Positions 15,709-54,860 of a DNA stretch of 64,000 bases are shown here, one piece after another; position 1 is the stretch's first letter; each line of letters opens with the position of its first letter. Below the pieces are notes generated by a model, which was given only the letters and a program-made list of their open reading frames with translations, searched no databases and was not told the DNA's origin. Origin of the DNA: Streptomyces cathayae (GTDB lineage: Bacteria; Actinomycetota; Actinomycetes; Streptomycetales; Streptomycetaceae); the NCBI RefSeq assembly GCF_029760955.1, contig NZ_CP121682.1, forward strand, positions 310,001-374,000, written 5' to 3'. The position numbers and the translations under genes are program-made.

Positions 15709-15739
15709 GCCCGCAGAGTAACCCGTCCCACCGACGACA

Positions 15740-15770
15740 CCCCCCGGGGCCCACCCGGAGCCCCGGGGGG
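15740..15770 (-). terminator. Stem-loop terminator of the S33 peptidase gene
   Basis: CCCCCCGGGGC, a 9-base loop and GCCCCGGGGGG form a perfect 11-bp stem 18 bases past the stop codon of the minus-strand hydrolase gene. It separates that gene from the PIG-L gene downstream. Confidence 0.65.
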
Positions 15771-15787
15771 CACGCCTCACTCCGCGC

Positions 15788-34899: not shown

Positions 34900-36656
34900 G
34901 GTGTCGGCTCCGTCTTTCCGTCGTGGCCCGTGCCCGGGGCGTCACCGCCCCCGTTGTCGCCGCCCCGGGACGGTGTGTCCGGGAACAGTCCGGGTGGGGA
35001 GCCCTTGCCGTCCCAGTTGAGGAGGTTCACCCGGGTGGCCTTGTCGGTGGGGGTGGCCGGGGTGTCGGAGGTCTGGCGGTCGCGCAGGGCGTGGAAGCTC
35101 TCCACGGCGATGGGGGCGGCGCCGCCGGAGGTCTCGCCGAAGGGGCCGGAGCCTCCCATGCCGGGGCCGCCCTCGTAGTCGAGGCTGCACTCGGTGGCCA
35201 GTTCCTCGAGCTGGTGGGCCTGTTCGGCGTGGGCGGGCGGAATGACGTACCGCTCGTCGTACTTCGCGAGGGCCAGCAGCCGGTACATGTCGTAGACCTG
35301 CTCGCCGGTCATGCCGACCGCCTCGGGGATGGCGTCGTTCGGTTCGCGTCCCAGGTTGATGTCGCGCATGTAGGCGCGCATGGCGGCCAGGCGGTGCAGG
35401 ACCGCGTCGACGGGGGCGGGGTCGCCCGCCGTGAACAGCTGGGCGAGGTAGTCGACGGGGATGCGCAGGGCGTCGACGGCGGCGAAGAGGTTCTGGTGGT
35501 CCTCGGCGTCGCGTCCGGTGTCCCGGACGGCGTCGACCACCGGGGACAGGGGCGGGATGTACCAGACCATGGGCATGGTCCGGTACTCCGGGTGCAGCGG
35601 CAGGGCCACCTTGTAGGTGTTGATCAGGGAGTGGATCGGGGAGCGCTGCGCGGCCTCGATCCAGTCCCGCGGGATGCCGGCCCGTTCGGCCGCGGCGACG
35701 ACCCGGGGGTCGTCCGGGTCGAGGAAGACCTGCCGCTGCGCCTCGTACAGGCCGGTGTCGTCCGGGGTGGAGGCGGCTTCCAGGACCCGGTCGGCGTCGT
35801 AGAGGACGAGGCCGATGTAGCGCAGCCGGCCGACGCAGGTCTCGGAGCAGACGGTGGGCAGCCCGACCTCGATGCGCGGGAAGCAGAACGTGCACTTCTC
35901 GGCCTTGCCGGTGCGGTGGTTGAAGTACACCTTCTTGTACGGGCATCCGGTGACGCACATCCGCCAGCCGCGGCACTTGTCCTGGTCGACCAGGACGATG
36001 CCGTCCTCCTCGCGCTTGTAGATCGCGCCGGAGGGGCAGGAGGCCGCGCAGGACGGGTTGAGGCAGTGCTCGCAGATGCGCGGCAGGTAGAACATGAAGG
36101 TCTGCTCGAACTCGAACTTGATCTTCTCGGAGACCTGGTTCAGCAGGACGTCCTTGTCGCCGTGGTCGGGCGAGCCGCCGAGGTCGTCGTCCCAGTTCGC
36201 GGACCAGGCGATCTTCATGTCCTTGCCGGTGATCAGGGACTTGGGGCGGGCGACGGGGGTGTGCTCCTGGAGCGGGGCGTTGGTGAGCGTCTCGTAGTCG
36301 TACGTCCAGGGCTCGTAGTAGTCGTCCAGGGAGGGCAGTTTGGGGTTCGAGAAGATCTGGATCAGCTTCTTGAACCGGCCGCCCGCCTTCAGCCCCAGCC
36401 TGCCGCGCTTGTTGAGCTCCCAGCCGCCCTGCCAGGTGTCCTGGTCCTCGTAGCGGCGGGGGTAGCCCTGGCCCGGGCGGGTCTCGACGTTGTTGAACCA
36501 GACGTACTCGACGCCGGAGCGGTTGGTCCACGCCTGCTTGCAGGTGACCGAACAGGTGTGGCAGCCGATGCACTTGTCGAGGTTCATCACCATCGCCATC
36601 TGCGCCATCACCCGCCCGATGGGGGCGGGCCCGGCGGATGCTTCGCCGACGGCCAT
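34896..36656 (-). CDS. narH: Respiratory nitrate reductase beta subunit (Fe-S), nar operon 1
   Basis: A 586-residue four-cluster ferredoxin-like protein. Cys motifs are CIGCHTCSVTCK (about 28-39), CEHCLNPSCAASCPSGA, CRGWRMCVTGCPYKK and CTFCFPR with CSETCVGR. The Trp in CRGWRMC is the usual substitution that makes one site a 3Fe-4S cluster. It relays electrons from NarI haem to NarG. The ATG at 36656 shares one base with the narG stop (TGATG). Its C-terminus runs about 50-60 residues beyond the second-operon NarH and is Gly/Asp/Pro-rich. Confidence 0.94.
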   Translation of the reverse strand: MAVGEASAGPAPIGRVMAQMAMVMNLDKCIGCHTCSVTCKQAWTNRSGVEYVWFNNVETRPGQGYPRRYEDQDTWQGGWELNKRGRLGLKAGGRFKKLIQIFSNPKLPSLDDYYEPWTYDYETLTNAPLQEHTPVARPKSLITGKDMKIAWSANWDDDLGGSPDHGDKDVLLNQVSEKIKFEFEQTFMFYLPRICEHCLNPSCAASCPSGAIYKREEDGIVLVDQDKCRGWRMCVTGCPYKKVYFNHRTGKAEKCTFCFPRIEVGLPTVCSETCVGRLRYIGLVLYDADRVLEAASTPDDTGLYEAQRQVFLDPDDPRVVAAAERAGIPRDWIEAAQRSPIHSLINTYKVALPLHPEYRTMPMVWYIPPLSPVVDAVRDTGRDAEDHQNLFAAVDALRIPVDYLAQLFTAGDPAPVDAVLHRLAAMRAYMRDINLGREPNDAIPEAVGMTGEQVYDMYRLLALAKYDERYVIPPAHAEQAHQLEELATECSLDYEGGPGMGGSGPFGETSGGAAPIAVESFHALRDRQTSDTPATPTDKATRVNLLNWDGKGSPPGLFPDTPSRGGDNGGGDAPGTGHDGKTEPTP

Positions 36657-39600
36657 CAGTACGTCACCTCCTGGTTCGAGCGGCGGCGGACGACGGTGAC
36701 CTCGTCGCGCTGGTTGCCGGTGGGGCCGAGGTAGTTGAAGGCGTACGACAGCTGGGCGTAGCCGCCGATGAGGTGGCTGGGCTTGATCAGCAGCCGGGTC
36801 AGGGAGTTGTGGATGCCGCCGCGCCGGCCGGTGGTCTCGGTGCGGGGCACGTCGATGAGCCGGTCCTGGGCGTGGTGCATGTAGACGGTGCCCTCCGGCA
36901 TACGGTGCGAGACGACCGCGCGGGCGGCGACCACACCGTTGCGGTTGACGGCCTCGACCCAGTCGTTGTCGTGCACGCCGATCTTCTCGGCGTCCTCCTT
37001 GCTCATCCAGATCGTCGGGCCGCCCCGGGAGAGGGAGAGCATGAACAGGTTGTCCTGGTACTCGGAGTGGATGGACCACTTGTTGTGCGGGGTCAGATAG
37101 CGCACGGTCACGCCCAGTTCGCCGACGTCGCCGATGCGTGGCTCTCCGAACAGGGCGTCCATGTTCAACGGCGGCCGGTAGACGGGCAGTTCCTCACCGA
37201 GTGCGGACATCCAGTCGTGGTCGAGGTAGAAGTGCTGCCGGCCGGTGAGGGTGTGCCAGGGCTTGAGACGCTCGACGTTGACGGTGAACGGCGAGTAGCG
37301 GCGTCCGCCGGTCTCCGAACCGGACCACTCCGGCGAGGTGATGACCGGGACCGGCGCGGCCTGGGTGTCGGCGAAGGTGATCTGCTTGCCCTCGTGTTCG
37401 GCCGCCAGGTCCGCGAGCCGGGTGCCGGTGCGCGCCTCCAGGCTGTGGAAGCCCTGGGTGGCGAGGTGGCCGTTGGTGGTGCCGGACAGGGCGAGGATCG
37501 CCTCGCAGGCGTGGGTGTCACGCGCGAGCGAGGGACGGCCGTCGGCCGTGCCGCCGCGCACGGTGCCGTTCTTGTGCCGCAGGTACTCCAGTTCGCGGTC
37601 GACCTTGAAGGTGATGCCCTTGGTGGTGGCGCCGAGGGTGTCGAGCAGCGGTCCGAGCGCGGCCATCTTGTCGGCGACGGCCGCGTAGTCGCGTTCGACG
37701 GTGACGAGTTTCGGCATGGTCCGGCCCGGGACCGGTTCGCACTCCCCCGCCTTCCAGTCGCGGACCCGGCCGTGCGGGTTCGCCATCTCGTCCGGGGTGT
37801 CGTGCAGCAGCGGCGCCGCGACGACGTCGGTGCGCACGCCCAGATGGCCGGCCGCCTGCCGGCTGAACTCCTTGGCGATGGCGTGGAAGGCGTCCCAGTC
37901 GCTGCGGGTCTGCCACGGCGGGGCGATGGCCGGGTTGAAGGCGTGCACGAAGGGGTGCATGTCCGTGCTGGACAGGTCGTACTTCTCGTACCAGGTGGCG
38001 GCCGGCAGGACGACGTCGGAGAAGACCGTGGTGCTGGTCATCCGGAAGTCCAGGGTCAGCAGCAGGTCGAGTTTGCCCTCGGGCGCCTCGTCGTGCCAGA
38101 CCACGTCCCGCGGGCGGGCCTCGGGCGGCGCCTCGGTGGCCCGCACGGAGGCGTCGGTGCCCAGCAGGTGCTTGAGGAAGTACTCGTTGCCCTTGGCGGA
38201 GGAACCCAGCAGGTTCGCCCGCCAGATGGTCAGCACCCGCGGGAAGTTCTCCGGGGCGTCCGGATCCTCCCCGGCGAACTTCAGCCGCCCCGCCTTGAGT
38301 TCGTCCACCACGTGGTCGGCGACCGGGCGGCCCCGCGCCGCGGCCTCGTCCGTCAGGTCGAGCGGGTTGCGGTCGAAGGTGGGATACGACGGCATCCAGC
38401 CCATCCGCGCCGACTGCGCGATGACGTCCGCCGTGGTCTTCCCGGCGAACGGGCCGCCTTGGCCCGGACCGGCCGCCGCGAGGGTGTCCGCGGAGAACGG
38501 GTCGTAGCGGAACTGGTCGGCGTGCAGGTACCAGTAGGCGGTCTGGATCATCAGCCGGGCCGGCCGGTTCCAGTCGGCGGCGGTGGCGATCGCCGAGTAG
38601 CCGGTGATCGGGCGGACCTTCTCCTGGCCGACGTAGTGCGCCCAGCCGCCGCCGTTGACGCCCTGGCAGCCGGTCAGCGTGGTCAGGGTCAGGAAGGACC
38701 GGTAGATGGTGTCGGAGTGGAACCAGTGGTTGGTCCCCGCCCCCATGATGATCATCGAACGGCCGCCGGACTCCTCGGCGTTGGTGGCGAACTCCCGGGC
38801 GATCCGGGCGACCCGGTCCGCGTCCACTCCGGTGATCGCGGCCTGCCAGGCCGGTGTGTACGGCTCCTCCGCGTCCTCGTACGAGGCCGGCCACCTGCCG
38901 GGCAGTCCCTCCCGGGCCACTCCGTACTGGGCCAGCAGCAGGTCGTAGACCGTGGTCACCAGGCGGCCGGCGATCCGGCGCACCGGCACCCCGCGCCGCA
39001 GCCGGCCCGCCGAGCCGTCCGGGGCGTCGAAGCGCGGCAGCAGGACGGTGACCGGCGCCTCAAGGGTGCCGTCGGCGGACAGCGACGGATCGGTGTCGCC
39101 CAGGTCGAGGTTCCATTTGCCGGCCCCGGACTCGCCGAAGCGGTCGCCGAGCGTGCCGTTCGGCACCACCGGCTCCCCGGTGGCCGCGTCCAGCAGCACG
39201 GTGCGGAAGTCCGCGTGCTCGGCCTCGGCGGCCTCACCGCCGAGGTCGGCGGCGGTCAGGAACTTGCCCGGTACGTAGGCACCGGTCTCGGCTCCGGCTC
39301 CGGCTCCGGCCTCGTCGAGGGTGACCAGGAAGGGCAGGTCGGTGTACCGCTTGACGTACTGCTCGAAGTACTCCGTCTTCCGGTCGACGAAGAACTCCTT
39401 GAGGATCACATGGCCCATGGCCATGGCCATGGCGCCGTCGGTGCCCGGCTGGGCCGGCAGCCACTCGTCGGCGAACTTCACGTTGTCCGCGTAGTCCGGG
39501 GAGACCGCGACCACCTTCTGCCCCCGGTAGCGGGCCTCGGCCATCCAGTGCGCGTCCGGGGTACGGGTCACCGGCAGGTTGGAGCCCCACATGATCAGGT

Positions 39601-40390
39601 AGCCGGCGTCCCACCAGTCCCCCGACTCCGGTACGTCGGTCTGGTCGCCGAAGACCTGCGGCGAGGCCACCGGCAGGTCCGCGTACCAGTCGTAGAACGA
39701 CAGCATCGCGCCGCCGAGCAGGGAGTAGAAGCGTGCGCCGGCCGCGTGCGAGACCATCGACATGGCCGGGATCGGCGAGAACCCGGCCAGCCGGTCCGGG
39801 CCGTGCTCCTTGATGGTGTGCACGTGCGCGGCGGCCACCATCTCGGTCGCTTCCGCCCAACTGGCCCGCACCAGACCGCCCTTGCCGCGTGCCCGCTTGT
39901 AGCGGCGGGAGCGCTCGGGGTCGGAGACGATGTCGGCCCAGGCCGCCACCGGATCGCCGAGGCGGGCCTTGGCCTCCCGGTACATCTCCAGCAGTACGCC
40001 CCGCACGTACGGGTAGCGCACCCGGGTCGGCGAGTAGGTGTACCAGGAGAAGGCCGCTCCCCGGGGGCAGCCGCGCGGTTCGTACTCGGGGCGGTCGGGG
40101 CCCACCGACGGATAGTCGGTCTGCTGGGCCTCCCAGGTGATGATGCCGTCCTTGACGTACACCTTCCACGAGCACGAGCCGGTGCAGTTCACCCCGTGGG
40201 TGGAGCGCACCACCTTGTCGTGCGACCACCGGTCCCGGTAGAACTCGTCCGCCTGGCGTCCGCCGCTCCGGTGCAGGGTGCGCAGGTCCTTGGAGACCTC
40301 CGCCCGGGTGAAGAACCGACGGCTGCGTACCAGGGCCTCCGCCAGATCACCGTCCATGCCCGCAGGTCCCGGGCTGATCTCCGTGCTCAC
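36656..40390 (-). CDS. narG: Respiratory nitrate reductase alpha subunit (Mo catalytic), nar operon 1
   Basis: A 1244-residue molybdopterin oxidoreductase that reduces nitrate to nitrite in the cytoplasm. The FS0 cluster motif STHGVNCTGSC has a His ligand (H65) and Cys 69, 73 and about 108 (RGCPRGA). The Mo-ligand Asp lies in FGDQTDVPE. There is no working Tat signal, as usual for NarG. The GTG at 40390 was chosen because GGAG is 7 bases upstream; an in-frame ATG at 40414 has none. Overall similarity to the second NarG in this window is high along the whole length. Confidence 0.94.
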   Translation of the reverse strand: MSTEISPGPAGMDGDLAEALVRSRRFFTRAEVSKDLRTLHRSGGRQADEFYRDRWSHDKVVRSTHGVNCTGSCSWKVYVKDGIITWEAQQTDYPSVGPDRPEYEPRGCPRGAAFSWYTYSPTRVRYPYVRGVLLEMYREAKARLGDPVAAWADIVSDPERSRRYKRARGKGGLVRASWAEATEMVAAAHVHTIKEHGPDRLAGFSPIPAMSMVSHAAGARFYSLLGGAMLSFYDWYADLPVASPQVFGDQTDVPESGDWWDAGYLIMWGSNLPVTRTPDAHWMAEARYRGQKVVAVSPDYADNVKFADEWLPAQPGTDGAMAMAMGHVILKEFFVDRKTEYFEQYVKRYTDLPFLVTLDEAGAGAGAETGAYVPGKFLTAADLGGEAAEAEHADFRTVLLDAATGEPVVPNGTLGDRFGESGAGKWNLDLGDTDPSLSADGTLEAPVTVLLPRFDAPDGSAGRLRRGVPVRRIAGRLVTTVYDLLLAQYGVAREGLPGRWPASYEDAEEPYTPAWQAAITGVDADRVARIAREFATNAEESGGRSMIIMGAGTNHWFHSDTIYRSFLTLTTLTGCQGVNGGGWAHYVGQEKVRPITGYSAIATAADWNRPARLMIQTAYWYLHADQFRYDPFSADTLAAAGPGQGGPFAGKTTADVIAQSARMGWMPSYPTFDRNPLDLTDEAAARGRPVADHVVDELKAGRLKFAGEDPDAPENFPRVLTIWRANLLGSSAKGNEYFLKHLLGTDASVRATEAPPEARPRDVVWHDEAPEGKLDLLLTLDFRMTSTTVFSDVVLPAATWYEKYDLSSTDMHPFVHAFNPAIAPPWQTRSDWDAFHAIAKEFSRQAAGHLGVRTDVVAAPLLHDTPDEMANPHGRVRDWKAGECEPVPGRTMPKLVTVERDYAAVADKMAALGPLLDTLGATTKGITFKVDRELEYLRHKNGTVRGGTADGRPSLARDTHACEAILALSGTTNGHLATQGFHSLEARTGTRLADLAAEHEGKQITFADTQAAPVPVITSPEWSGSETGGRRYSPFTVNVERLKPWHTLTGRQHFYLDHDWMSALGEELPVYRPPLNMDALFGEPRIGDVGELGVTVRYLTPHNKWSIHSEYQDNLFMLSLSRGGPTIWMSKEDAEKIGVHDNDWVEAVNRNGVVAARAVVSHRMPEGTVYMHHAQDRLIDVPRTETTGRRGGIHNSLTRLLIKPSHLIGGYAQLSYAFNYLGPTGNQRDEVTVVRRRSNQEVTY

Positions 40391-40455
40391 CGTGCCACTC
40401 CGCTCCGGGCACACGTGGCCCGTTCGAATCGTGATCGGTTTCGGCCGTTCTCGAC

Positions 40456-43914: not shown

Positions 43915-44361
43915 TCAGGTGACCGGCAGGGCGGTGGCGAGCAGGACGACGCCCAGGGAGCCGACCAGGGCGACGACCGCCAGGGTCCGGGCCGTCTCCG
44001 TGCGGCCCTGGGAGTGGGCGATCCCATGGCCCGCCGCGGCGAGCATCACCACGGCGAACAGGGCGAGTTTGGCCGCGAGGGTGCGGCCGTGGCCGGGCTC
44101 GGCGAGGGATGCCCAGGTGACGCCCCGGTGCCGGGCCATGGCCCATCCGGTGGCCAGTTGCATGGGCAGGAAGACCGCGCCGGTGAGCATCCCGAAGCGG
44201 CGGCCGGCCGCGGCGGTGAAACGGTCCTTGGCCTCCGGGGCGAGCAGCCGCCGGGCCAGCGGCAGGACCACCAGCGACAGGGCCAGCTGCCCGCCGACCC
44301 ACAGGGCGGCGCCCGCCACATGCGCGAACCGGACCAGGGACCACCAGCCGACGGTGTCCAC
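43915..44361 (-). CDS. CopD-like four-helix membrane protein linked to nirK
   Basis: A 148-residue protein with four membrane helices. WWSLVRFAHVAGAALWVGGQLAL at the start and GHGIAHSQGRTETARTL near the end resemble the CopD/PCu domain, with histidines that could bind copper or haem. The GTG shares one base with the nirK stop (TAGTG), so it is translated with nirK. It may help copper supply or electron delivery to NirK at the membrane. The exact family is uncertain. Confidence 0.75.
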   Translation of the reverse strand: MDTVGWWSLVRFAHVAGAALWVGGQLALSLVVLPLARRLLAPEAKDRFTAAAGRRFGMLTGAVFLPMQLATGWAMARHRGVTWASLAEPGHGRTLAAKLALFAVVMLAAAGHGIAHSQGRTETARTLAVVALVGSLGVVLLATALPVT

Positions 44362-45803
44362 TACCCGATCACCTCCACGGTGCCGTGCGCGCCCGCTTCG
44401 GCGTGGCGCATGTCGTGATCGACGAAGGAGTAGTGGCCGGCCTCCGGAAACGTCGTCTCGACGAAACCACCCTGCGCCGGAGCCAGGTCCAGTACCTGCG
44501 CGCCGCCCGGATCCCCGGGGCCCAGCAGGAGGACGCCCTCCTTGTACACGGTGTCGAAGACGGTGCCCACGATGTGGAAGGCGATGCCGTTCCTCGGCCC
44601 GGCGGCGACCACCCAGAACCGGACCCGTTCACCGGCCCGCACCCTCAGGGGCCGCTCGGCGTACTGGGCGGCGACCCCGTTGAACGTCCAGGCGTCCGGC
44701 TCGTTCCGGCGCATCTTCGCCACCTGGGCGGCGCTGCCCGGCGTGCCGAGGTAGAGCTCGGAGGAGACCAGCGCGTATTCGTGGTCGGCCTTCCTCAGCC
44801 CCGGCGGGTCGATGACCACGGCGCCGTACATGCCGTTGCCGATGTGCTGGAGCATGGGCGCGGTGCTGCAGTGGTACAGCCAGGCGCCGGCCTTCTCGGC
44901 GCGGAAGCGGTGGACCAGGCGCTCGCCGGGCTCTATGGTGCGCATCGGCCCGTCGGGGGCGAGGGAGCCGGCGTGGAAGTCGATGCCGTGGCCCATGCCC
45001 GGGTCGTCGTTGATCAGGGTGATCTCGAAGACGTCGCCGATCCTGCCGCGCAGGGTGGGGCCGGGCGCGGTGCCGCCGAAGGTCCACATCCGCTGTGTCA
45101 CGCCGGGAGCGACTTCGACGTCGGTGCGGGCGGCGCGCAGTTCCGTCCGGTGCACCGTCTTGCCGGGTGCGGGGGCCAGGTCGGCGGGGCGGGGCCGCCA
45201 GCCGGCGGAGAACCCGGCGGTGAGGTCGGGGCCGTCCTCCGTGCCGGAGCCGGAGGCCGCCGTGCGGCCGTCGTGTTCCGCGTCTGCGCCACCGTCCCCG
45301 CCGAAGCCGTCGTCGACGGCGGCGGCAGCGGCGACGGCGACGGCGACGGCGGCAATGTACAGGGTCATCCCGGCCGCCCGGTGGCCCGGCAGGGTGCACC
45401 ACGCCTCACGGTCCTCGGTGACCGGGCCGAGGTCGAGCACACGGCTGTCGCTCCGGGCCAGCATCGGGGTGGTGGGGCCGTCCTCCACCTCGAGGTCGTG
45501 CCGCTGGGCATCGGTGTTGGTGACCTTCAGCCGCAGTGCGGTGCCCGCGGCGACCTCGATGCGGTCCGGCCGGACCCGCATGTCGGTCAGGGTCACGGCG
45601 ACGGTGCGGACGACTTTCGTGGCACCGGCCGCGGTTCCGGCGGCGACATGCGAACCGCCGGTGTTTCCACCGCTGTTGGCGACCAGTACGGCCAGCACGG
45701 TCAGTACCGTGCCCGCGACGGTGCCCCACAGCGCGGGCCGCCGTGCCGTACGGTCCGTGCGGCCGCCGCCGTCGGTGTCCGGGGCGTACCGCTCACCGTG
45801 CAC
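44361..45803 (-). CDS. nirK: Copper nitrite reductase (NirK) with fused N-terminal cupredoxin domain
   Basis: A 480-residue protein. One N-terminal membrane helix (24-44) is followed by a cupredoxin domain (65-148) with a type 1 copper set His102, Cys136, His141, Met146. The NirK core (215-480) keeps every ligand of the two-domain enzyme: type 1 His272, Cys312, His320, Met325; type 2 His277, His311, His463; and the catalytic Asp275 and His410. It would reduce nitrite to NO outside the cell membrane, the fused cupredoxin passing electrons to the core. Between them is a low-complexity Ala/Val segment (148-163). The GTG at 45803 has GAGGAG upstream and overlaps the radical SAM gene. Confidence 0.85.
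   Translation of the reverse strand: MHGERYAPDTDGGGRTDRTARRPALWGTVAGTVLTVLAVLVANSGGNTGGSHVAAGTAAGATKVVRTVAVTLTDMRVRPDRIEVAAGTALRLKVTNTDAQRHDLEVEDGPTTPMLARSDSRVLDLGPVTEDREAWCTLPGHRAAGMTLYIAAVAVAVAAAAAVDDGFGGDGGADAEHDGRTAASGSGTEDGPDLTAGFSAGWRPRPADLAPAPGKTVHRTELRAARTDVEVAPGVTQRMWTFGGTAPGPTLRGRIGDVFEITLINDDPGMGHGIDFHAGSLAPDGPMRTIEPGERLVHRFRAEKAGAWLYHCSTAPMLQHIGNGMYGAVVIDPPGLRKADHEYALVSSELYLGTPGSAAQVAKMRRNEPDAWTFNGVAAQYAERPLRVRAGERVRFWVVAAGPRNGIAFHIVGTVFDTVYKEGVLLLGPGDPGGAQVLDLAPAQGGFVETTFPEAGHYSFVDHDMRHAEAGAHGTVEVIG
45330..45347. repeat. GGCGAC microsatellite inside nirK
   Basis: Three exact GGCGAC units, continued by GGCGGC, encode the Ala/Val run between the cupredoxin and the NirK core. Six-base units keep the frame, so copy-number change would alter only linker length. 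Confidence 0.65.
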
Positions 45804-47073
45804 GGTGCTCCTCGCCGTCCGGGGCGGCAGTGGGGCGGGGGGCTGCGGGCTGCCCGCCCCGGGGGCCGGCGGTCAGCAGTTCGGCCAGCTCCCGCTGGTA
45901 CGGGAACGAGCCCGGCCGGTAACCGCACCACGGCTCCTCGGCGTACGGGTCGCCGGTGACGCCGTAGGCCCGGGACCGTGAGCCGCCGCAGACCCGGCGG
46001 AACTCGCACTGCCCGCACCGGCCGCCCAGCCGGTCGGCGTCCCGCAGCCCGGTGAACAGGTCCGAGGTCCGGTAGATCTCGGTCAGCGGCGTCTCGCGCA
46101 CAGTGCCGGCGCCCAGCGGGAGGAAGCCGCTGGGGTGCACGCCGCCGGTGTGCGAGACGAAGACGAACCCGCGGCCCGCGTTGACGTCCAGCGGTGGGCG
46201 GCGCGCCCGGCGTACTCCGGCGTCCAGCCCCAACACTGCGGCACGGCCCCGCAGTTCGTGGTAGAGCGGGCCGAGTCCGAGCGCCCCGACATGGTCCTCC
46301 CCGCGTCGCGCGAGGATCAGACGCTGGAGCGCGACACGACGGAAGTGGTGGGCCTCGGTGGTCTTGGCGGGCACGGTCAGGCCCATGTCGTAGACGAAGT
46401 TGAGGACGTCCTCCACCTCGCCGGGCGTCAGTGCGCCCAGGGCGCGGCCGCGTCCGGTGGGCACCAGGAAGAAGGCGCTCCACAGCATCGCGCCGTGTTC
46501 GGCGACGAGGCGGACGATGTCGGGGAGGTCGTGCAGATCGTGCCGGGCGACCGTGGTGTTGACCTGCACCTTCATGCCGAGGGCGCGGGCCGCGTCCCAG
46601 GCGTCCAGGGTCCAGCGGAACACCCCCGGCACGCCCCGGAAGTCGTCGTGGAGTCCGGCTGTGGACCCGTCGAGGCTGAGGGAGAGTCCGACGGCTCCGG
46701 CCGCGTGCAGTTCGCGCAGCCGTTCCTCGGTGAGGGTGGGGGTGCCGGAGGGGGACACGGCGACCCGGACCCCGATCTGCCTGCCGTACGTGATGAGTTC
46801 GGTGAGGTCGGGGCGCTGGAAGGGGTCACCGCCGGTGATCACGAACAGCGGGGCGGGCTGTCCGAAGGCGGCCACCTGCCGCAGCAGGTCGCACACGGCT
46901 GCGGTGTCCAGCTCCCGCGGGTCGCGGTCGGGCACGGCCTCGGCACGGCAGTGGAGACAGGCCAGCGGGCAGGCCCGGGTGGACTCCCAGATGACGATGA
47001 ACGGCCGCTCCCCCGCGTCGTGCCGTTGACGGCGGACGGCTGCCCGGTCGGCCGTCTCCGCGGCGGCGCTCAC
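45793..47073 (-). CDS. Radical SAM/SPASM protein coupled to nirK
   Basis: A 426-residue radical SAM protein. The cluster motif CPLACLHC (Cys 35, 39, 42) is followed by FVITGGDPFQRPDL and SLDGSTAGLHDDFRGVPG. The C-terminal SPASM-type Cys set is CGQCEFRRVCGG with a later PWCGYRPG. It is similar in layout to NirJ/AhbD haem-modifying enzymes and to the TIGR04053-type family I recall. As NirK uses copper and not haem d1, its target is unknown. The GTG at 47073 has GGAGG 8 bases upstream. Its end overlaps nirK by 11 bases, so it is the first gene of a radSAM-nirK-copD operon. Confidence 0.85.
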   Translation of the reverse strand: MSAAAETADRAAVRRQRHDAGERPFIVIWESTRACPLACLHCRAEAVPDRDPRELDTAAVCDLLRQVAAFGQPAPLFVITGGDPFQRPDLTELITYGRQIGVRVAVSPSGTPTLTEERLRELHAAGAVGLSLSLDGSTAGLHDDFRGVPGVFRWTLDAWDAARALGMKVQVNTTVARHDLHDLPDIVRLVAEHGAMLWSAFFLVPTGRGRALGALTPGEVEDVLNFVYDMGLTVPAKTTEAHHFRRVALQRLILARRGEDHVGALGLGPLYHELRGRAAVLGLDAGVRRARRPPLDVNAGRGFVFVSHTGGVHPSGFLPLGAGTVRETPLTEIYRTSDLFTGLRDADRLGGRCGQCEFRRVCGGSRSRAYGVTGDPYAEEPWCGYRPGSFPYQRELAELLTAGPRGGQPAAPRPTAAPDGEEHRAR

Positions 47074-47208
47074 CGTTCGGCCCTCCTCGGCGTACCGGCG
47101 CGGTCTCGGGGACGGTCGATGTGGTCGTGCACGGGATACCTCCGGTTCGGTCGCCGTCAGCATCCCCCCGGCGCCGTGGCCGGGGCAGCGGCCGACGGGC
47201 TTCTCCGG

Positions 47209-47226
47209 CAGGGCCGTTGGTCCCTG
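47209..47226. promoter_or_regulatory. DosR/OsdR-like box between the radical SAM gene and narG2
   Basis: CAGGG-CCGTTGGT-CCCTG contains the 14-mer GGGCCGTTGGTCCC, matching GGG-nCn-nn-nGn-CCC. It lies 92 bp upstream of narG2 and 136 bp upstream of the divergent radical SAM gene, so one site could serve both operons. The regulator is inferred. Confidence 0.55.
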
Positions 47227-47317
47227 TCAGGGGTGGGTGCAGGGGGCCGGAAGGTCCGGCGGTGGGGGCCGCCGGACCCAGGTGCGCGGAGATCACTGCC
47301 GCCTAGCGTTCCTGAGC

Positions 47318-50300
47318 ATGGAGAACGATCAGAACGCAGGGCCGCGGGAGTCACGTACCGCCCATGACTGGCCTCTTGCGGCCCGTCGGCTGTTGACGCG
47401 CCGTGAGGTGTCGGCCGACGGCCGTGCCGTGTTCGGCGAGGGCGACCCCCGGTGGGAGGGGTTCTACCGGGACCGGTGGTCGCACGACAAGGTGGTGCGC
47501 TCCACCCACGGGGTGAACTGCACCGGCTCGTGCTCGTGGATGGTGTACGTCAAGGACGGCCTCATCACCTGGGAGCACCAGGCCACCGACTACCCGTCGA
47601 TCGGCACGGACTGCCCCGAGTACGAGCCGCGCGGCTGCCCGCGCGGGGCGTCGTTCTCCTGGTACACCTACTCCCCCAGCCGGGTCCGCTACCCGTATGT
47701 GCGCGGCACGCTGCTGAAGATGTGGCGCGAGGCCCGGGGGCGGCTCGGTGACCCGGTGGCGGCGTGGGCGGAGATCACCGGCGACCCGGCGAAGGCCCGC
47801 GCCTACAAGCGGGCACGCGGCAAGGGCGGTCTGGTGCGGGCCGACTGGGACGAGGTGGCCGAACTGGTCGCCGCCGCGCATGTGCACACCGTCAAACAGC
47901 ACGGTCCGGACCGGGTGGTCGGCTTCTCGCCGATCCCGGCCATGTCGATGGCCTCGTTCGCGGCCGGCTCCCGCTTCATGTCGCTGATCGGCGGCACCCT
48001 GCTGTCGTTCTACGACTGGTACGCCGACCTGCCGGTGGCGTCCCCGCAGGTCTTCGGCGACCAGACCGACGTGCCGGAGGCCGCGGACTGGTGGAACGCC
48101 GGCTACCTGATCATGTGGGGCTCCAACATCCCGGTCACCCGCACGCCCGACGCGCACTTCCTGACCGAGACCCGCTACAACGGCACCAAGATCGTCGCCG
48201 TCAGCCCGGACTACGCCGACAACGTCAAGCACGCCGACGAGTGGGTGTCCCCGCACCCGGGCACCGACGGTGCGCTGGCCATGGCGATGGGCCACGTGAT
48301 CCTGCGCGAGTTCCTCGTCGACCGCGAGGTTCCGTACTTCCAGGACTACTTGCGCACGTTCACCGACGCGCCGTTCCTGGTGACGCTGCGGGAGCACGGC
48401 GACGACCTGGTGCCCGACGGCTTCCTGACCGCCGCCGACCTGGGGCGCGAGGACGAGAACGCCGAGAACTACGAGAACGCCGACTCCAAGACGGTCCTGC
48501 TGGACTCCGCCACCGGCGAGCCCGTCGTCCCGAACGGCTCCCTGGGCTTCCGCTGGGCGAAGTCCGGCGCGGGCAGCTGGAACCTCGACCTCGGCGACGT
48601 CGTCCCCGAACTGAGCCTGCTGGAGCGGGCCGGGGAGCGGGCCACGGTGGCGCTGCCCCGCTTCGACGAGGGTCCCACCGAGGGCGGTTCGAGCATGGTG
48701 CGCGGGGTGCCGGTCCACAGGATCGGCGGACGCCGGGTCACCACCGTCTTCGATCTGATGCTGGCCCAGTACGGTGTCGAGCGCCCGGGGCTGCCCGGCG
48801 ACTGGCCGTCCTCGTACGACGACGCCTCGCGGCCCTACACCCCGGCCTGGCAGGAGACGGTCACCTCGGTGCCCGCCGAGCAGGCGGCCCGGATCGCCCG
48901 GGAGTTCGCCCGCAACGCGGAGCGTACGAAAGGCCGTTCCATGATCGCGCTGGGGGCCGGCACCAACCACTGGTTCCACTCCGACACCATCTACCGCGCG
49001 TTCCTGGCGCTGACCACGATGACCGGCTGCCAGGGCGTCAACGGCGGCGGCTGGGCGCACTACGTCGGCCAGGAGAAGGTCCGCCCCCTCACCGGCTTCC
49101 AGCACCTCGCCTTCGCCTTCGACTGGCAGCGGCCCACCCGGCACATGACGGGCACCTCGTACTGGTACCTCAACTCCGACCAGTGGCGCTACGAGGCGTT
49201 CGGGGCGGACGAGTTGGCCTCCCCGCTGGGCAAGGGCAAGCTCGAGGGCAGGACGTTCGCCGACTGCCTGGCACAGGCCGTGCGGCTGGGCTGGACACCC
49301 GGTCACCCCGGCTTCGACCGCAACCCCCTCGACCTGGCGGACGAGGCCGCGGCGCGGGGCCGCCCGGTCGCCGAGCACATCGTGGACGAACTCAAGGCGG
49401 GGCGGCTGAAGTTCGCCGCCGAGGACCCGGACGCGCCCGAGAACTTCCCGCGGGTGCTGACGGTGTGGCGGGCCAACCTGCTGGGGTCCTCCGGCAAGGG
49501 CAACGAGTACTTCCTGCGGCATCTGCTGGGCGCGGACGCGGCCGTCCGCTCCGAGGAGACCCCGCCCGGGGGGCGCCCGCGGGAGGTGGTCTGGCACGAC
49601 GAGGCGCCCGAGGGTAAACTCGACCTGCTGGTCACCCTGGACTTCCGGATGACCTCCACCGGTCTGCTCTCCGACGTCGTCCTGCCGGCCGCGACCTGGT
49701 ACGAGAAGGACGACCTGTCCAGCACGGACATGCACCCCTTCGTGCACGCCTTCACCCCGGCCATCGCCCCGCCCTGGCAGGCGCGCACCGACTACGACAC
49801 CTTCCTCACCATCGCCGACCGGTTCAGCGAGCTGGCCGCCGAGCACCTGGGCAAGCGGACCGACGTCCTCGCGGTGCCGCTGCTGCACGACACCCCCGAC
49901 GAACTCGCCCAGCCCGGAGGGGTGGTGAAGGACTGGAAGACCGGCGAGTGCGAGCCGGTCCCGGGGCGCACCATGCCGAAACTGGTGGTCGTCGAGCGGG
50001 ACTACGCGGCCACCGGGCAGAAGATGCGGGCCATCGGCCCGCTGCTCGACACCCTGGGCACCACCACCAAGGGCGTCACCGTCCACCCCGACCGGGAGAT
50101 CGAGGACCTGCGCCACCGCTGCGGCACCGTCCGCGACGGAGTGGGCGCCGGCCGGCCCTCGCTGGCCACCGCCTCCGACATGTGCGAGGCGATCCTGGCC
50201 CTGTCCGGCACCACCAACGGCCGCCTGGCCACCGAGGGCTTCCGCGAGCTCGAACGGCAGACCGGCAGCAAGGGTCTGGTGGAGCTCGCCTCCGAACGCG

Positions 50301-51034
50301 AGGCCGAGCGGATCACCTTCGCCGACACCCGCAGCCGGCCGCGCTCGGTGATGACCTCCTACGAGTGGTCGGGCTCGGAGTCCGGCGGGCGCCGCTACTC
50401 CCCGTTCGTCATCAACACCGAGCACAAGAAGCCGTGGCACACCCTCACCGGCCGCCAGCACTTCTTCGTCCAGCACGACTGGATGACCGAACTCGGTGAA
50501 CAGCTCCCCGTCTACCGCCCGCCGCTGAACACCCCGCGGCACTACGGCGACGAGCAACTGCGCGAGGACGGCCGGGCGGAGGTCACGGTCCGCTATCTGA
50601 CCCCGCACTCGAAGTGGTCCATCCACTCCAACTACCAGGACAACAAGTACATGCTCGACCTGTCCCGCGGCGGTCCGGTCATCTGGATGTCCCTGGAGGA
50701 CGCCGAGAAGATCGGTGTCAAGGACAACGAGTGGATCGAGGCGTACAACCGCAACGGCGTGGTCGCCTGCCGGGCCGTGGTCACCCACCGGATGCCCGAG
50801 GGGACCGTGTACATGTACCACGCCCAGGACCGCAACGTGAACGTGCCGAAGACCGAGGTCAGCGGCAAGCGCGGCGGCATGCACAACTCGCTGACGAGGC
50901 TGCTGCTCAAGCCCACCCATCTGGCCGGCGGCTACGCCCAGTTCACCTACGCCTTCAACTACTACGGCCCGACCGGCAACCAGCGGGACGAGGTCACCGT
51001 CATCCGCCGCCGCAGCCAGCGAGTGGAGTACTGA
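47318..51034 (+). CDS. narG: Respiratory nitrate reductase alpha subunit (Mo catalytic), nar operon 2
   Basis: A 1238-residue molybdopterin enzyme, the second NarG in this window. FS0 ligands are His64 and Cys68, Cys72 in STHGVNCTGSC, with the fourth in RGCPRGA; the Mo-ligand Asp is in FGDQTDVPEAADWWNAGYL. It matches NarG1 along its length, differing mainly in the first 45 residues and in the 370-440 region. No ribosome binding site precedes the ATG at 47318, so the transcript may be leaderless or the start may be slightly different. It heads a narGHJI-VKOR operon and is divergent from the radical SAM gene. Confidence 0.93.
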   Translation: MENDQNAGPRESRTAHDWPLAARRLLTRREVSADGRAVFGEGDPRWEGFYRDRWSHDKVVRSTHGVNCTGSCSWMVYVKDGLITWEHQATDYPSIGTDCPEYEPRGCPRGASFSWYTYSPSRVRYPYVRGTLLKMWREARGRLGDPVAAWAEITGDPAKARAYKRARGKGGLVRADWDEVAELVAAAHVHTVKQHGPDRVVGFSPIPAMSMASFAAGSRFMSLIGGTLLSFYDWYADLPVASPQVFGDQTDVPEAADWWNAGYLIMWGSNIPVTRTPDAHFLTETRYNGTKIVAVSPDYADNVKHADEWVSPHPGTDGALAMAMGHVILREFLVDREVPYFQDYLRTFTDAPFLVTLREHGDDLVPDGFLTAADLGREDENAENYENADSKTVLLDSATGEPVVPNGSLGFRWAKSGAGSWNLDLGDVVPELSLLERAGERATVALPRFDEGPTEGGSSMVRGVPVHRIGGRRVTTVFDLMLAQYGVERPGLPGDWPSSYDDASRPYTPAWQETVTSVPAEQAARIAREFARNAERTKGRSMIALGAGTNHWFHSDTIYRAFLALTTMTGCQGVNGGGWAHYVGQEKVRPLTGFQHLAFAFDWQRPTRHMTGTSYWYLNSDQWRYEAFGADELASPLGKGKLEGRTFADCLAQAVRLGWTPGHPGFDRNPLDLADEAAARGRPVAEHIVDELKAGRLKFAAEDPDAPENFPRVLTVWRANLLGSSGKGNEYFLRHLLGADAAVRSEETPPGGRPREVVWHDEAPEGKLDLLVTLDFRMTSTGLLSDVVLPAATWYEKDDLSSTDMHPFVHAFTPAIAPPWQARTDYDTFLTIADRFSELAAEHLGKRTDVLAVPLLHDTPDELAQPGGVVKDWKTGECEPVPGRTMPKLVVVERDYAATGQKMRAIGPLLDTLGTTTKGVTVHPDREIEDLRHRCGTVRDGVGAGRPSLATASDMCEAILALSGTTNGRLATEGFRELERQTGSKGLVELASEREAERITFADTRSRPRSVMTSYEWSGSESGGRRYSPFVINTEHKKPWHTLTGRQHFFVQHDWMTELGEQLPVYRPPLNTPRHYGDEQLREDGRAEVTVRYLTPHSKWSIHSNYQDNKYMLDLSRGGPVIWMSLEDAEKIGVKDNEWIEAYNRNGVVACRAVVTHRMPEGTVYMYHAQDRNVNVPKTEVSGKRGGMHNSLTRLLLKPTHLAGGYAQFTYAFNYYGPTGNQRDEVTVIRRRSQRVEY

Positions 51035-51035
51035 C

Positions 51036-52592
51036 ATGCCCCGTGGCGAAGCCACTGTCGGACGCGTGATGGCCCAGATCGCGATGGTGATGAACCTCGA
51101 CAAGTGCATCGGATGCCACACCTGCTCGGTCACCTGCAAGCAGACGTGGACCAACCGCACCGGTGTCGAGTACGCCTGGTTCAACAACGTCGAGACCAAG
51201 CCCGGTGTCGGCTACCCCCGCCGCTACGAGGACCAGGAGCAGTGGAAGGGCGGCTGGACGCTCGACAGGCGCGGCCGGCTGGTGCTGCGCTCCGGGGGCC
51301 GGGTCAAGCGGCTGCTGTCGCTGTTCTCCAACCCCGACCTGCCGTCCCTGGAGGACTACTACGAGCCGGTCACCTACGACTACGACAACCTCATCAGCGC
51401 CCCCGCCGGACCCGACATGCCCGTGGCCCGGCCCCGCTCGGTGATCACCGGCAAGCCCACCGAGATCACCTGGGGCGCCAACTGGGAGGACGGCCTCGGC
51501 GGCGCCCCGGAGAACGCCGGCCGCGACCCCGACCTGTCGGGCGAGTGGGCCGAGAAGGTCAGGTTCGAGTTCGAGCAGACCTTCCTCTTCCACCTCCCCC
51601 GGCTGTGCGAGCACTGCCTCAACCCGGCCTGTGTGTCGGCCTGTCCGTCCGGCGCGATGTACAAGCGGGTCGAGGACGGCATCGTCCTGGTCGACCAGGA
51701 CAAGTGCCGCGGCTGGCGGATGTGCGTGACGGCGTGCCCGTACAAGAAGGTGTACGTCAACCACGCCACCGGCAAGGCGGAGAAGTGCACCTTCTGCTTC
51801 CCGCGCATCGAGGCCGGCCAGCCCACCGTCTGCTCCGAGACCTGTGTCGGCCGGCTGCGCTACCTCGGTCTGCTGCTGTACGACGCCGACCGGGTCGGCG
51901 AGGCGGCGGCCACGCCCGACGAGAAGGACCTGCTGGACGCCCAGCGGAACGTGTTCCTCGATCCCTTCGCCCCCGAGGTCGTCGCCGCGGCACGGGAGTC
52001 GGGCATCCCGGAGGACTGGCTGGAGGCGGCCCGCCGCTCCCCGGTGTACGCCCTGGTGTCGAAGTACAAGGTGGCGCTGCCGCTGCACCCGGAGTACCGC
52101 ACCCTGCCGATGGTCTGGTACGTGCCGCCGCTCTCCCCGGTGCTCGACGCGGTCGACGCGGCCGGCGGCGATCAGGACGACCCGGACCACGTGTTCGCCG
52201 CCGTCACCCGGCTGCGCATCCCGCTGGAGTACCTGGCGGAGCTGTTCACCGCCGGGGACACCGACGTCGTCGGCGGGGTCCTGATGAAGCTCACCGCGCT
52301 CCGCTCGTACATGCGCGGGCGCACCCTGGGCGAGGAGGGCGACGAGGCCGTGGTCAAGGCCGTCGGCCTCACCGGGCAGGAGGCCGAGGACCTGCACCGG
52401 CTGCTCGCCGTCGCCAAGTACGAGGACCGCTACGTCGTCCCCGCCGCCCACAAGGAGGACGCCGCCGCGCTCACCGCCATGGAGAACCGCTGCCCGGTCG
52501 AGTCCTCCGGCGACCCGGCGGGCACCGACGGCCGGCGCGTGCTGCTCGGCATCCCCACCCTGCGCCGCAAGAACTCCGGAGACCTCCCGTGA
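51036..52592 (+). CDS. narH: Respiratory nitrate reductase beta subunit (Fe-S), nar operon 2
   Basis: A 518-residue NarH with the same four cluster motifs as the first copy: CIGCHTCSVTCK, CEHCLNPACVSACPSGA, CRGWRMCVTACPYKK and CTFCFPR with CSETCVGR. The gene begins one base after the narG2 stop. It lacks the Gly/Asp-rich C-terminal extension of NarH1 and ends in a short PTLRRKNSGDLP tail. Its stop overlaps the narJ2 start (GTGA). Confidence 0.94.
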   Translation: MPRGEATVGRVMAQIAMVMNLDKCIGCHTCSVTCKQTWTNRTGVEYAWFNNVETKPGVGYPRRYEDQEQWKGGWTLDRRGRLVLRSGGRVKRLLSLFSNPDLPSLEDYYEPVTYDYDNLISAPAGPDMPVARPRSVITGKPTEITWGANWEDGLGGAPENAGRDPDLSGEWAEKVRFEFEQTFLFHLPRLCEHCLNPACVSACPSGAMYKRVEDGIVLVDQDKCRGWRMCVTACPYKKVYVNHATGKAEKCTFCFPRIEAGQPTVCSETCVGRLRYLGLLLYDADRVGEAAATPDEKDLLDAQRNVFLDPFAPEVVAAARESGIPEDWLEAARRSPVYALVSKYKVALPLHPEYRTLPMVWYVPPLSPVLDAVDAAGGDQDDPDHVFAAVTRLRIPLEYLAELFTAGDTDVVGGVLMKLTALRSYMRGRTLGEEGDEAVVKAVGLTGQEAEDLHRLLAVAKYEDRYVVPAAHKEDAAALTAMENRCPVESSGDPAGTDGRRVLLGIPTLRRKNSGDLP

Positions 52593-53431
52593 ACCCACTG
52601 CCCGCCGGTGTCCCCGCCCTGGTCCGCGCCCGTGTCCGGGCCGCCGTACGCCGCCCGGACCGGACCGCCCCCGGCCGTCGGGGCCGGCTCACGCCCGAGG
52701 AGGCCGAGGCCCGCACACTGCTGCTGCGGCTGTGCTCACTGCTGCTGCAGTACCCGGACGCCGAACTCGCCACCACCCGGCCGGTGCTGACGTCCACGGT
52801 GGCCGCGCTGCCGGCGTCGCCCGCCGCCGGGCACCTGGCCGGTTTCACGGCCTGGCTCACCGCCCAGGAACCGGATGCCCTGGAGCGCCACTACGTCGAG
52901 ATGTTCGACCTGCGCCGCAAGAGCAGCCTCTACCTCACCTACTACCTGCACGGCGACACCCGCCGCCGCGGGATGGCCCTGCTGATCCTGAACCAGCGCT
53001 ACCGGGCGGCCGGTTGGGACACCGACGGAGGCGAACTGCCCGACCACCTCCCGGTCGTGCTGGAGTTCGCCGCCCTCGTGGGCACCGGCGCGGGCGAGGC
53101 GCCGCTGCGTCAGCACCGGCGCGGACTGGAGCTGATCCACCGGGCGTTGACCGACGCCGGCTCCCCGTACCGGCATGTGCTGGCGGCGCTGCTCACGCTG
53201 CTGCCGCCGCCCACCGAGGAGGACCGGGCGGCGGTGGCCCGGCTGGTCGCCGAGGGCCCGCCGAACGAGGAGGTCGGGCTCGACCCCTACGGAACGTACG
53301 GGGAGGGGGAGTTCGCCCCTCCTGGCACCTTCGTGCCCCCGCCGCCCGCCGCCCCGACCCGGGTCCCGCCCGTCACCCCGCCGTTCACGCCGCCCGTCAC
53401 CCCGCCGAGCCGTACGGAAGGCCGCCGATGA
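52589..53431 (+). CDS. narJ: Nitrate reductase assembly chaperone, nar operon 2, with proline-rich tail
   Basis: A 280-residue NarJ. The family core is RLCSLLLQYPDAEL, FDLRRKSSLYLTYYLHGDTRRRG and GGELPDHLPVVLEFAALV, ending near NEEVGLDPYGTYG. A C-terminal extension of about 45 residues is almost pure Pro/Thr/Val (TFVPPPPAAPT, then PPVTPPFTPPVTPP), absent from NarJ1. It is probably disordered and could bind a partner. The GTG overlaps the narH2 stop, and the narI2 ATG overlaps its own stop. Confidence 0.92.
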   Translation: MNPLPAGVPALVRARVRAAVRRPDRTAPGRRGRLTPEEAEARTLLLRLCSLLLQYPDAELATTRPVLTSTVAALPASPAAGHLAGFTAWLTAQEPDALERHYVEMFDLRRKSSLYLTYYLHGDTRRRGMALLILNQRYRAAGWDTDGGELPDHLPVVLEFAALVGTGAGEAPLRQHRRGLELIHRALTDAGSPYRHVLAALLTLLPPPTEEDRAAVARLVAEGPPNEEVGLDPYGTYGEGEFAPPGTFVPPPPAAPTRVPPVTPPFTPPVTPPSRTEGRR

Positions 53432-54225
53432 ACGCCCTGTCCCTCACCGTCGCCGCCTCTTCCCCCGTGAGCGGCCCCGAGTTGCTGCTGTGGGTGGCCG
53501 TTCCGTACGTCTGCCTGGCCGTGTTCGTGGTCGGGCACGTGTGGCGCTACCGGCAGGACCAGTTCGGCTGGACCTCGCGCACCAGCCAGCTCCTGGAACA
53601 CCGCTGGCTGCGCTGGGGCAGCCCGCTGTTCCACCTGGGCGCGTTCATGGTGATCGCCGGGCATGTGGTGGGGCTCGCCGTACCGGCCTCGTGGACCGAG
53701 GCCGTCGGCATCGACGAGCACACGTACCACGTCACGGCCGTCTGGGCGGGCTCGGTGGCCGGTGTCGCCATGGTCGCCGGGCTCGGCATGCTGTGCGCCC
53801 GGCGGCTGCTGAGCCGGCGGATCCGGCTCGGCACCGACCGCAGCGACAAGCTCCTCTTCCCGCTGCTGTCCGCCACCGTCCTGCTGGGCATCGCCGCCAC
53901 CGCCGCGCACAACGTCTTCGGCCCCGGTCACGACTACCGCTCCACCGTCTCCGTCTGGTTCCGGGGCCTGTTCACCCTCGCCCCGAAGCCCGAGGCGATC
54001 ACCGGCGCCCCGCTGCTCTTCCAACTGCACGCCCTGACCGCCTGCCTGCTCTTCGCGGCCTGGCCGTTCACCCGTCTCGTCCATGTGTGGAGCGCGCCGG
54101 TCGGGTACCTCGTCCGGCCGTACCTGGTCTACCGGCGCAGGAACGCGTCGACGGCGGCCGTGCGGGCCGCGGCCGACGGCGCCGGGCGGATCCGGCCGCG
54201 CTCCGGCTCCCGGCCGGCCTCATGA
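53428..54225 (+). CDS. narI: Respiratory nitrate reductase gamma subunit (cytochrome b), nar operon 2
   Basis: A 265-residue NarI with five membrane helices. Haem histidines are in GSPLFHLGAFMVIAGHVVGL and FQLHALTACLLFAAWPFTRLVH. Start and stop both overlap their neighbours by 4 bases (ATGA), so NarJ, NarI and VKOR are translationally coupled. The C-terminal 25 residues are a basic tail (YRRRNAS, RIRPRSGSR). Confidence 0.93.
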   Translation: MNALSLTVAASSPVSGPELLLWVAVPYVCLAVFVVGHVWRYRQDQFGWTSRTSQLLEHRWLRWGSPLFHLGAFMVIAGHVVGLAVPASWTEAVGIDEHTYHVTAVWAGSVAGVAMVAGLGMLCARRLLSRRIRLGTDRSDKLLFPLLSATVLLGIAATAAHNVFGPGHDYRSTVSVWFRGLFTLAPKPEAITGAPLLFQLHALTACLLFAAWPFTRLVHVWSAPVGYLVRPYLVYRRRNASTAAVRAAADGAGRIRPRSGSRPAS

Positions 54226-54860
54226 ACACGAGCGCCCCCTCCCCCGCGGCGGATCCCGCCGCCGTCCGGCCCCCGCGCACGGTGGGCGCCGGCCGCCGGA
54301 CGGGTCTGGTGCTGCTGGTCACCGGGCTCGTCGGCTGGCTCGCGTCCTTCCAGCTCACCGTGGACGACTGGCGGTCGCTCATCGACCCGGCCCACCGGCC
54401 GGCGTGCGACATCAGCCCCGTGGTGAGCTGCGGCAGCGTCATGTCCAGCCCGCAGGGCAACCTGTTCGGCTTCCCCAACATGCTGCTCGGGCTGGGCGCG
54501 TTCGCCGCCGTCGCCGTGCTGGGTGTCGCCGTCCTCACTGGTGCCCGCCTCCACCGGGGGCTCTGGCTCGCGCTGGGCGCCGGGGCGCTGGCCGGGGTGG
54601 TCTTCGTGCACTGGCTGATCGTCCAGTCGCTGTACGAACTCAACAAGCTCTGCCCCTACTGCGTCGTGGTCTGGGCCGTCACCATCGCCCTCTTCTGGTA
54701 CGTCACCGTGCACTGCCTGGACCGGGGGATCCTCCCCGCGCCCCGAAGAGTGCCGGCCGTGGTCCGGGACACCCACTGGATGCTGCTCGGCGCCTGGTAC
54801 GGCGTGATCGCCGCACTCGTCCTCACCCGTTTCTGGTCCTACTGGCGCACCCTGCTGTGA
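54222..54860 (+). CDS. Vitamin K epoxide reductase (VKOR) family protein in the nar2 operon
   Basis: A 212-residue membrane protein with about five helices. The four VKOR cysteines are present: Cys62 and Cys70 in CDISPVVSC, and the active pair Cys144/Cys147 in CPYC. Bacterial VKORs reoxidise DsbA-like proteins using menaquinone to form disulfides outside the cell. The ATG overlaps the narI2 stop by 4 bases, so it is translated with the nitrate reductase. There is no DsbA fusion and no dsbA gene nearby. Both VKOR and NarI use menaquinone, which may explain the pairing. Confidence 0.9.
   Translation: MNTSAPSPAADPAAVRPPRTVGAGRRTGLVLLVTGLVGWLASFQLTVDDWRSLIDPAHRPACDISPVVSCGSVMSSPQGNLFGFPNMLLGLGAFAAVAVLGVAVLTGARLHRGLWLALGAGALAGVVFVHWLIVQSLYELNKLCPYCVVVWAVTIALFWYVTVHCLDRGILPAPRRVPAVVRDTHWMLLGAWYGVIAALVLTRFWSYWRTLL

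Follow-up and report, generated by a model that had tools for sequence, protein, structure and literature searches.

What does a radical S-adenosylmethionine (SAM)/SPASM enzyme do when its gene stands directly in front of nirK and divergently to a nitrate reductase operon? The question is raised by a gene in a stretch of 64,000 nucleotides from the 7.6 Mb genome of Streptomyces cathayae (contig NZ_CP121682.1, positions 310,001 to 374,000; the whole stretch is called the window below, and coordinates refer to it). The gene (45793-47073, minus strand) starts with GTG at 47073, preceded by the ribosome-binding site GAGGAGGG, and encodes 426 amino acids; an alternative in-frame ATG at 47163 would give a protein of 456 amino acids. 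It is the first gene of a pair with nirK (44361-45803, minus strand, GTG start), and the two open reading frames (ORFs) share 11 bases (45793-45803), in agreement with an earlier note on this DNA. That note saw no known substrate and a candidate for an undescribed function, and considered as options modification of NirK, synthesis of a peptide-derived cofactor, or modification of haem for NarI, the haem b subunit of nitrate reductase. Our analysis indicates that the gene very probably encodes an AhbD-type, oxygen- and peroxide-independent coproheme decarboxylase, a prediction that draws on the family and grouping of the protein, its cysteine pattern, the haem-gene operons of some relatives and the occurrence of the family together with two haem routes. 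Provision of haem b for NarI during nitrate respiration is its most likely role, with substrate, product, expression at low oxygen and delivery to NarI as we infer them; of the former options, haem for NarI is the best supported, in the sense of making haem b rather than altering haem that is already complete.

The protein is a full-length member of family TIGR04053 (475 bits; curated cut-off 395) and has a Pfam Radical_SAM match of 65 bits. Lower-ranked families were AhbD (TIGR04545, 299 bits), NirJ2 (182 bits), AhbC (155 bits) and NirJ (150 bits), and one source gives the close homologue P0078 the name 'AdoMet-dependent heme synthase'. A tree was built from 33 proteins, in which all 24 rows of TIGR04053 grouped together (support 100/98) and five actinobacterial AhbD rows, all of which pass TIGR04545, formed a second group (support 98/95). 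The branch uniting these groups against NirJ, two AhbC/NirJ1-like proteins (415-442 bits, compared with cut-offs of 650) and MftC had a support of 99/98; the root was placed at the midpoint, and the position of AhbD as sister group of TIGR04053 presupposes that the long-branched MftC is the outgroup. Profile scores and tree bear out the likeness to NirJ and AhbD that had been recognised before. With canonical AhbD, characterised in Methanosarcina and Desulfovibrio, the window protein has in common the radical SAM motif, the AuxII motif, 21 alignment columns and the nearest position in the tree, but it remains far below the TIGR04545 cut-off (299 against 500 bits) and does not carry the AuxI cysteines that belong to the full eight-cysteine SPASM pattern. 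In PDB the family profile matched 27 sequences at 0.001 with no AhbD entry among them; the nearest were PqqE, cytosylglucuronate decarboxylase and SkfB. In the literature searched we found neither the name TIGR04053 nor anything joining Streptomyces, nitrate reductase, nirK and radical SAM. Members of the family were present in 31 of 246 sampled Streptomyces genomes. A Campylobacter jejuni record (NZ_CP029056, L042), a 2.9 kb 'plasmid' carrying TIGR04053, falls together with a sequence from Mesobacillus in the tree and is possibly a contamination.

The cysteine pattern places the protein more precisely. According to PMC10452713, AhbD enzymes fall into those with two auxiliary clusters and an AuxII-only subset that is found in most non-methanogenic archaea; in the latter, three AuxI cysteines are exchanged for two serines and one glutamate, and the same source proposes that these conserved residues stand in for AuxI. 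The window protein displays this arrangement: the radical SAM cluster motif CX3CX2C at residues 35-42 (Cys 35/39/42), the C-terminal AuxII motif CX2CX5CX20-38C (Cys 353/356/362/383), and E240, S315 and S365 at the three former AuxI positions. The radical SAM cysteines, the AuxII cysteines and S365 were invariant across 23 TIGR04053 rows. Moreover, 21 columns were common to six TIGR04053 and five AhbD rows and absent from four NirJ, AhbC-like and MftC rows; R246 did not vary among the 23 TIGR04053 rows.

A genetically tested relative exists in Haloferax volcanii. The TIGR04053 protein P0142 of this species (500 bits) shares 49% identity with the window protein across 374 positions, and is taken to be HVO_2144/AhbD on a basis that includes species and family. 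HVO_2144 is listed as ahbD, with 42% identity to AhbD of M. barkeri (PMC8305020), and lies near nirK and norB (PMC5746218). The ahbD deletion mutant is reported to show normal growth in air but to grow very slowly when it denitrifies or respires dimethyl sulfoxide (DMSO), and haem brings the DMSO-respiring mutant back to a similar growth level (PMC5746218). H. volcanii was among the three of 14 control genomes with a match at 1e-105, two of which pass the cut-off. The enzymes of H. volcanii and of the window thus have the family, the AuxII-only cysteines and a nearby nirK in common, while their genomes differ in the markers of the haem route: the H. volcanii control has PF17805 (AhbA/B type) and no ferrochelatase match, whereas the genome of the window has a ferrochelatase (C1:2065985-2066941), together with a ChdC (C1:1727331-1727891), and no PF17805 match. 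Since the family holds a protein matched to a genetically tested AhbD, and since ahbD beside hemY/hemH/hemQ is already in print (earlier work cited by PMC10548856), the notion of an enzyme with no known substrate and an undescribed function finds no support. Beyond this, the present analysis assigns TIGR04053 to the AuxII-only AhbD group, reports it from nar and nirK neighbourhoods in Streptomyces, and contributes an argument from two haem routes.

The gene neighbourhoods of relatives were evaluated for 80 named loci, the best 80 of at least 581 relatives, weighted to Actinomycetota and with at least 20 kb of sequence for 43 of them. In some of these, and in one genome of the survey described below, the family sits among genes for the end of the coproporphyrin pathway: rSAM-chdC-cpfC-cgoX in a member of the Chloroflexi (L073), cpfC-chdC-rSAM in Actinomyces bovis (L074), and cpfC-cgoX-chdC-rSAM, all on one strand, in an actinobacterial genome (G007). 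At least one cpfC, cgoX or chdC match was found within 500 base pairs (bp) in 13/80 loci, and at least two within 2 kb in 5/80. Fifteen neighbour proteins were checked with NCBIfam. All seven cgoX-type neighbours among them pass TIGR00562; the curated name of that family is protoporphyrinogen oxidase, so that the label 'cgoX' is our reading by pathway context; the cgoX calls in L059 and G007 were by tblastn only. The neighbouring ChdC of L074 and G007 pass HemQ_actino, and that of L073 is weaker (90 bits; cut-off 235). Of the ferrochelatases, those of L073, G007, G010 and L066 pass TIGR00109, and L074 has a split match below the cut-off. In three Streptomyces loci (L053, L057, L059) the order is narG-narH-narJ-narI-rSAM-cgoX, where narI ends and rSAM begins in a shared ATGA or GTGA, and cgoX abuts or overlaps the rSAM end. 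A cgoX-like gene in or beside Streptomyces nar operons, either adjoining the TIGR04053 gene or at the opposite end, was also seen in L051 and L052. NirK homologues (at least 100 bits) occurred in the examined flanks of 10/80 loci and NarG (at least 300 bits) in 17/80. Recurrent neighbours in Bacillaceae were Crp/FNR-type regulators, MoaA, MoeA, hemerythrin/ScdA and YwiC-like proteins, which we read as nitrate-respiration surroundings.

The haem routes of family genomes narrow down the possible reaction. Among 296 Actinomycetota genomes, taken in one draw, 27 had a TIGR04053 match above the cut-off. Ferrochelatase was found in 19 of these and the siroheme-route marker PF17805 above its cut-off in seven, a marker that is not wholly specific, as a Deinobacterium control also matches it; no genome had both, and one (G073, 89% complete) had neither. 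Two of the ferrochelatase genomes (G135 and G157) gave weak PF17805 matches below the cut-off. The family thus accompanies two different routes to haem, and the only step that these have in common is the conversion of coproheme to haem b. Three comparison genomes with canonical AhbD split in the same manner, with ferrochelatase in G043 and G250 and PF17805 in G191. In the seven siroheme-route genomes the second-best ranked match reached at most about 206 bits, compared with 305-390 bits for most full-length AhbD-type rows. No ChdC match was obtained in five of the 27 genomes (G010, G073, G129, G135 and G157; drafts, 89-96% complete). Three of these (G010, G135 and G157) have a ferrochelatase, which leaves TIGR04053 as the sole visible coproheme decarboxylase of these draft genomes. 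Among the 80 named loci, the ChdC search covered the genomes of 39 and was positive for 35, the negative ones being two Archaeoglobi records, a Methylomirabilota record and an Opitutaceae record.

Under the favoured reading, the enzyme would bind Fe-coproporphyrin III (coproheme) supplied by CpfC and cleave SAM at the [4Fe-4S] cluster of the CX3CX2C motif to a 5'-deoxyadenosyl radical. The radical would start the oxidative decarboxylation of the ring A and B propionates to vinyls, yielding haem b without O2 or H2O2, and the remaining electron would leave with the help of the single auxiliary cluster AuxII. The predicted reaction is that of ChdC/HemQ, whose genes are adjacent in several relatives, although the protein families are unrelated and ChdC uses H2O2. 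The enzyme would thus duplicate the last step of the peroxide-dependent ChdC, which is encoded elsewhere and would serve in air, and its placement before nirK and divergently to narGHJI might keep haem b for NarI coming in low oxygen. AhbD is described as carrying out the last step of the coproporphyrin pathway in some organisms (PMC7242693), and in 2024 the oxygen-independent last enzyme of this pathway in Bacillaceae was called 'yet unknown' (PMC10965808). We consider it probable, with less confidence than the assignment of the window gene itself, that TIGR04053 is this missing enzyme in the Gram-positives that carry it. The last step of haem synthesis would then be encoded within nitrate-respiration operons themselves, in some strains along with a second cgoX-like gene. 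The family offers a testable candidate for finishing haem via the coproporphyrin route when O2 and H2O2 are both lacking. It also gives the AuxII-only AhbDs, a subset unassayed in vitro as of 2023, a bacterial member, and after a test TIGR04053 could be called a haem synthase instead of a 'family'. A recognised gap would be filled in this way, by a chemistry that is itself not undescribed.

Several observations weigh against a haem b synthase. ChdC is present in 22 of the 27 family genomes, and the enzyme would thus usually be an extra. In the Bacillus subtilis control no TIGR04053 match was found at 1e-105, and this species is described as a nitrate respirer; the family is therefore not universal among nitrate respirers with the coproporphyrin pathway. 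In H. volcanii, haem is reported to have rescued the denitrifying growth defect incompletely, and this required the addition of DMSO (PMC5746218); by the account in PMC10452713 the AuxII-only AhbDs were without biochemical study as of 2023. The AuxI replacements are not strict, position 240 being E in 19/23 and A in 4/23 rows and position 315 being S in 18/23 and A in 5/23, and some of the columns shared with AhbD vary among the 23 rows (K237 is R in 7/23, T239 is V in 8/23). Searched with Streptomyces queries, 67 of the 80 named relatives, many of them short loci, have no cpfC, cgoX or chdC within 500 bp; a haem gene within 5 kb was found in just three of 26 fetched Actinomycetota flanks (G007, G010 and G139). 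The window itself has no CgoX, ChdC or CpfC match, so that the operon evidence comes from relatives.

These points have to be set against what other explanations can account for. If the enzyme modified NirK, for example by an amino-acid crosslink or a radical-derived residue, the overlap of the two genes and their co-occurrence would be readily understood. NirK-like matches at E<=1e-40 were found in 15/27 TIGR04053 genomes and 17/269 others (16/27 and 51/269 at E<=1e-20), and narG (E<=1e-100) in 8/27 and 30/269, in a sample whose genomes are not independent and for which the co-occurrence P values ignore relatedness. The link between NirK and TIGR04053 is real. It is not exclusive: at E<=1e-20 nothing like NirK was matched in 11 of the 27 genomes, the same 11 are also without narG, and NirK lies in the examined flanks of just 10 of the 80 named relatives. 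The enrichment is as expected if NirK and the radical SAM enzyme both serve anaerobic N-oxide respiration. By the earlier note's own criterion, genomes of the family without NirK disfavour the modification of NirK, as do the relatives in haem-gene operons and a nearest tree group that acts on coproheme, and we regard this option of the earlier note as extremely improbable. A NirJ-type enzyme of haem d1 synthesis, as the homologue of Thermus thermophilus is annotated (PMC7694296), would agree with the distant similarity to NirJ (150 bits) and with the position of that homologue between an annotated nitrite reductase, which matches NirS of the order nirSJM, and a cytochrome c. In the plasmid of T. 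thermophilus JL-18 (L036), the gene occupying the nirJ place in the denitrification region (14998-16125) is itself a TIGR04053 member (482.8 bits), and the rest of the 31 kb stretch has no further gene with a haem d1 biosynthesis name; the role in haem d synthesis for which the literature names it 'NirJ' is therefore doubtful, and we question the label. With NirJ proper (TIGR04051, cut-off 515), cytochrome cd1-, NirF- or NirN-type genes would be expected in the genome; that of the window has no match to PF02239 above the cut-off (best 22.6 bits), and among the 27 family genomes this profile hit strongly in one (G292, 340 bits) and weakly, though above the cut-off, in four (26-48 bits). The 19 of 27 genomes with ferrochelatase and without PF17805 above its cut-off, and a tree that parts TIGR04053 from NirJ, likewise argue against haem d1 synthesis, which is very unlikely.

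Maturation of a peptide, either a ribosomally synthesised and post-translationally modified peptide (RiPP) or a peptide-derived cofactor, could be expected of an enzyme with a SPASM domain, the more so if a small upstream ORF were the precursor. Such an ORF (47070-47132, minus strand, 20 codons), with the strong Shine-Dalgarno sequence and start GGAGGTATCCC-GTG and a stop overlapping the rSAM start codon, had been overlooked when it was stated that the flanks held no candidate precursor. Among close relatives (78% identity or more in the stretch tested), 34 upstream regions were compared, with the window entering twice; in 31 of them (28 distinct sequences) the rSAM start codon is also the exact end point of an ORF of 15-72 amino acids that has a strong ribosome-binding site. 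In L046 and L169, which are identical loci, its frame is lost by a frame-shift and the rSAM gene is intact; in L047 the rSAM gene itself begins at the leader-type start site. None of 15 less similar upstream regions carries the ORF. Over 23 aligned ORFs, the ratio of nonsynonymous to synonymous differences (pN/pS) was 0.84 and there was no excess of third-position changes; the frame is kept, yet the peptide is not visibly conserved and does not make a good precursor. The conserved part coincides with a GC-rich hairpin (seen in L166, L168 and related Streptomyces loci) that is present in 23 of the 28 distinct leader ORFs, of about 12 base pairs in most, with a pairwise identity of 86% compared with 64% and 51% in the flanks; comparison with Rfam at E 0.1 gave no match for it. 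The window copy is a short form without hairpin and conserved part. A RiPP maturase would be accompanied by a conserved precursor gene, and the leader ORF is missing or frame-shifted in 3/34 regions, other flanking small ORFs not having been searched. Its pN/pS and patchy occurrence make peptide maturation, including the cofactor formerly proposed, scarcely credible, and we read the leader ORF as a device of translational coupling, perhaps of regulation, rather than as the enzyme's substrate. A further reading is an enzyme that acts on coproheme but goes no further than the monovinyl stage, or one whose product is a different haem variant for Nar or Nor enzymes. We give it very little weight, as ordinary protohaem is reported to rescue the H. 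volcanii mutant, fully so in DMSO respiration (PMC5746218), and as the conserved Ser and Glu are suggested substitutes for AuxI (PMC10452713).

The product of nirK has an N-terminal cupredoxin domain and copper nitrite reductase domains (TIGR02376, 152.8 bits, below the cut-off of 296.3). Beyond the intergenic region between the divergent rSAM and narG genes (47074-47317), narG (respiratory nitrate reductase alpha, 47318-51034) is followed on the plus strand by narH (51036-52592), narJ (52589-53431, PF02613) and narI (nitrate reductase gamma subunit, 53428-54225, PF02665, 294 bits). Directly behind narI lies a VKOR-family gene (54222-54857, plus strand), and directly after nirK a gene for a 148-amino-acid protein (43915-44361, minus strand) that has no Pfam match at 0.001. 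A second NirK-like protein, with 52% identity, is encoded elsewhere in the genome (G000:C1:2830698-2832146, minus strand). The window contains two full-length narG genes, both above the cut-off (36656-40414, minus strand, and 47318-51034, plus strand), which point outward from the block of hemerythrin, major facilitator superfamily (MFS), nitroreductase, nirK and rSAM genes between them.

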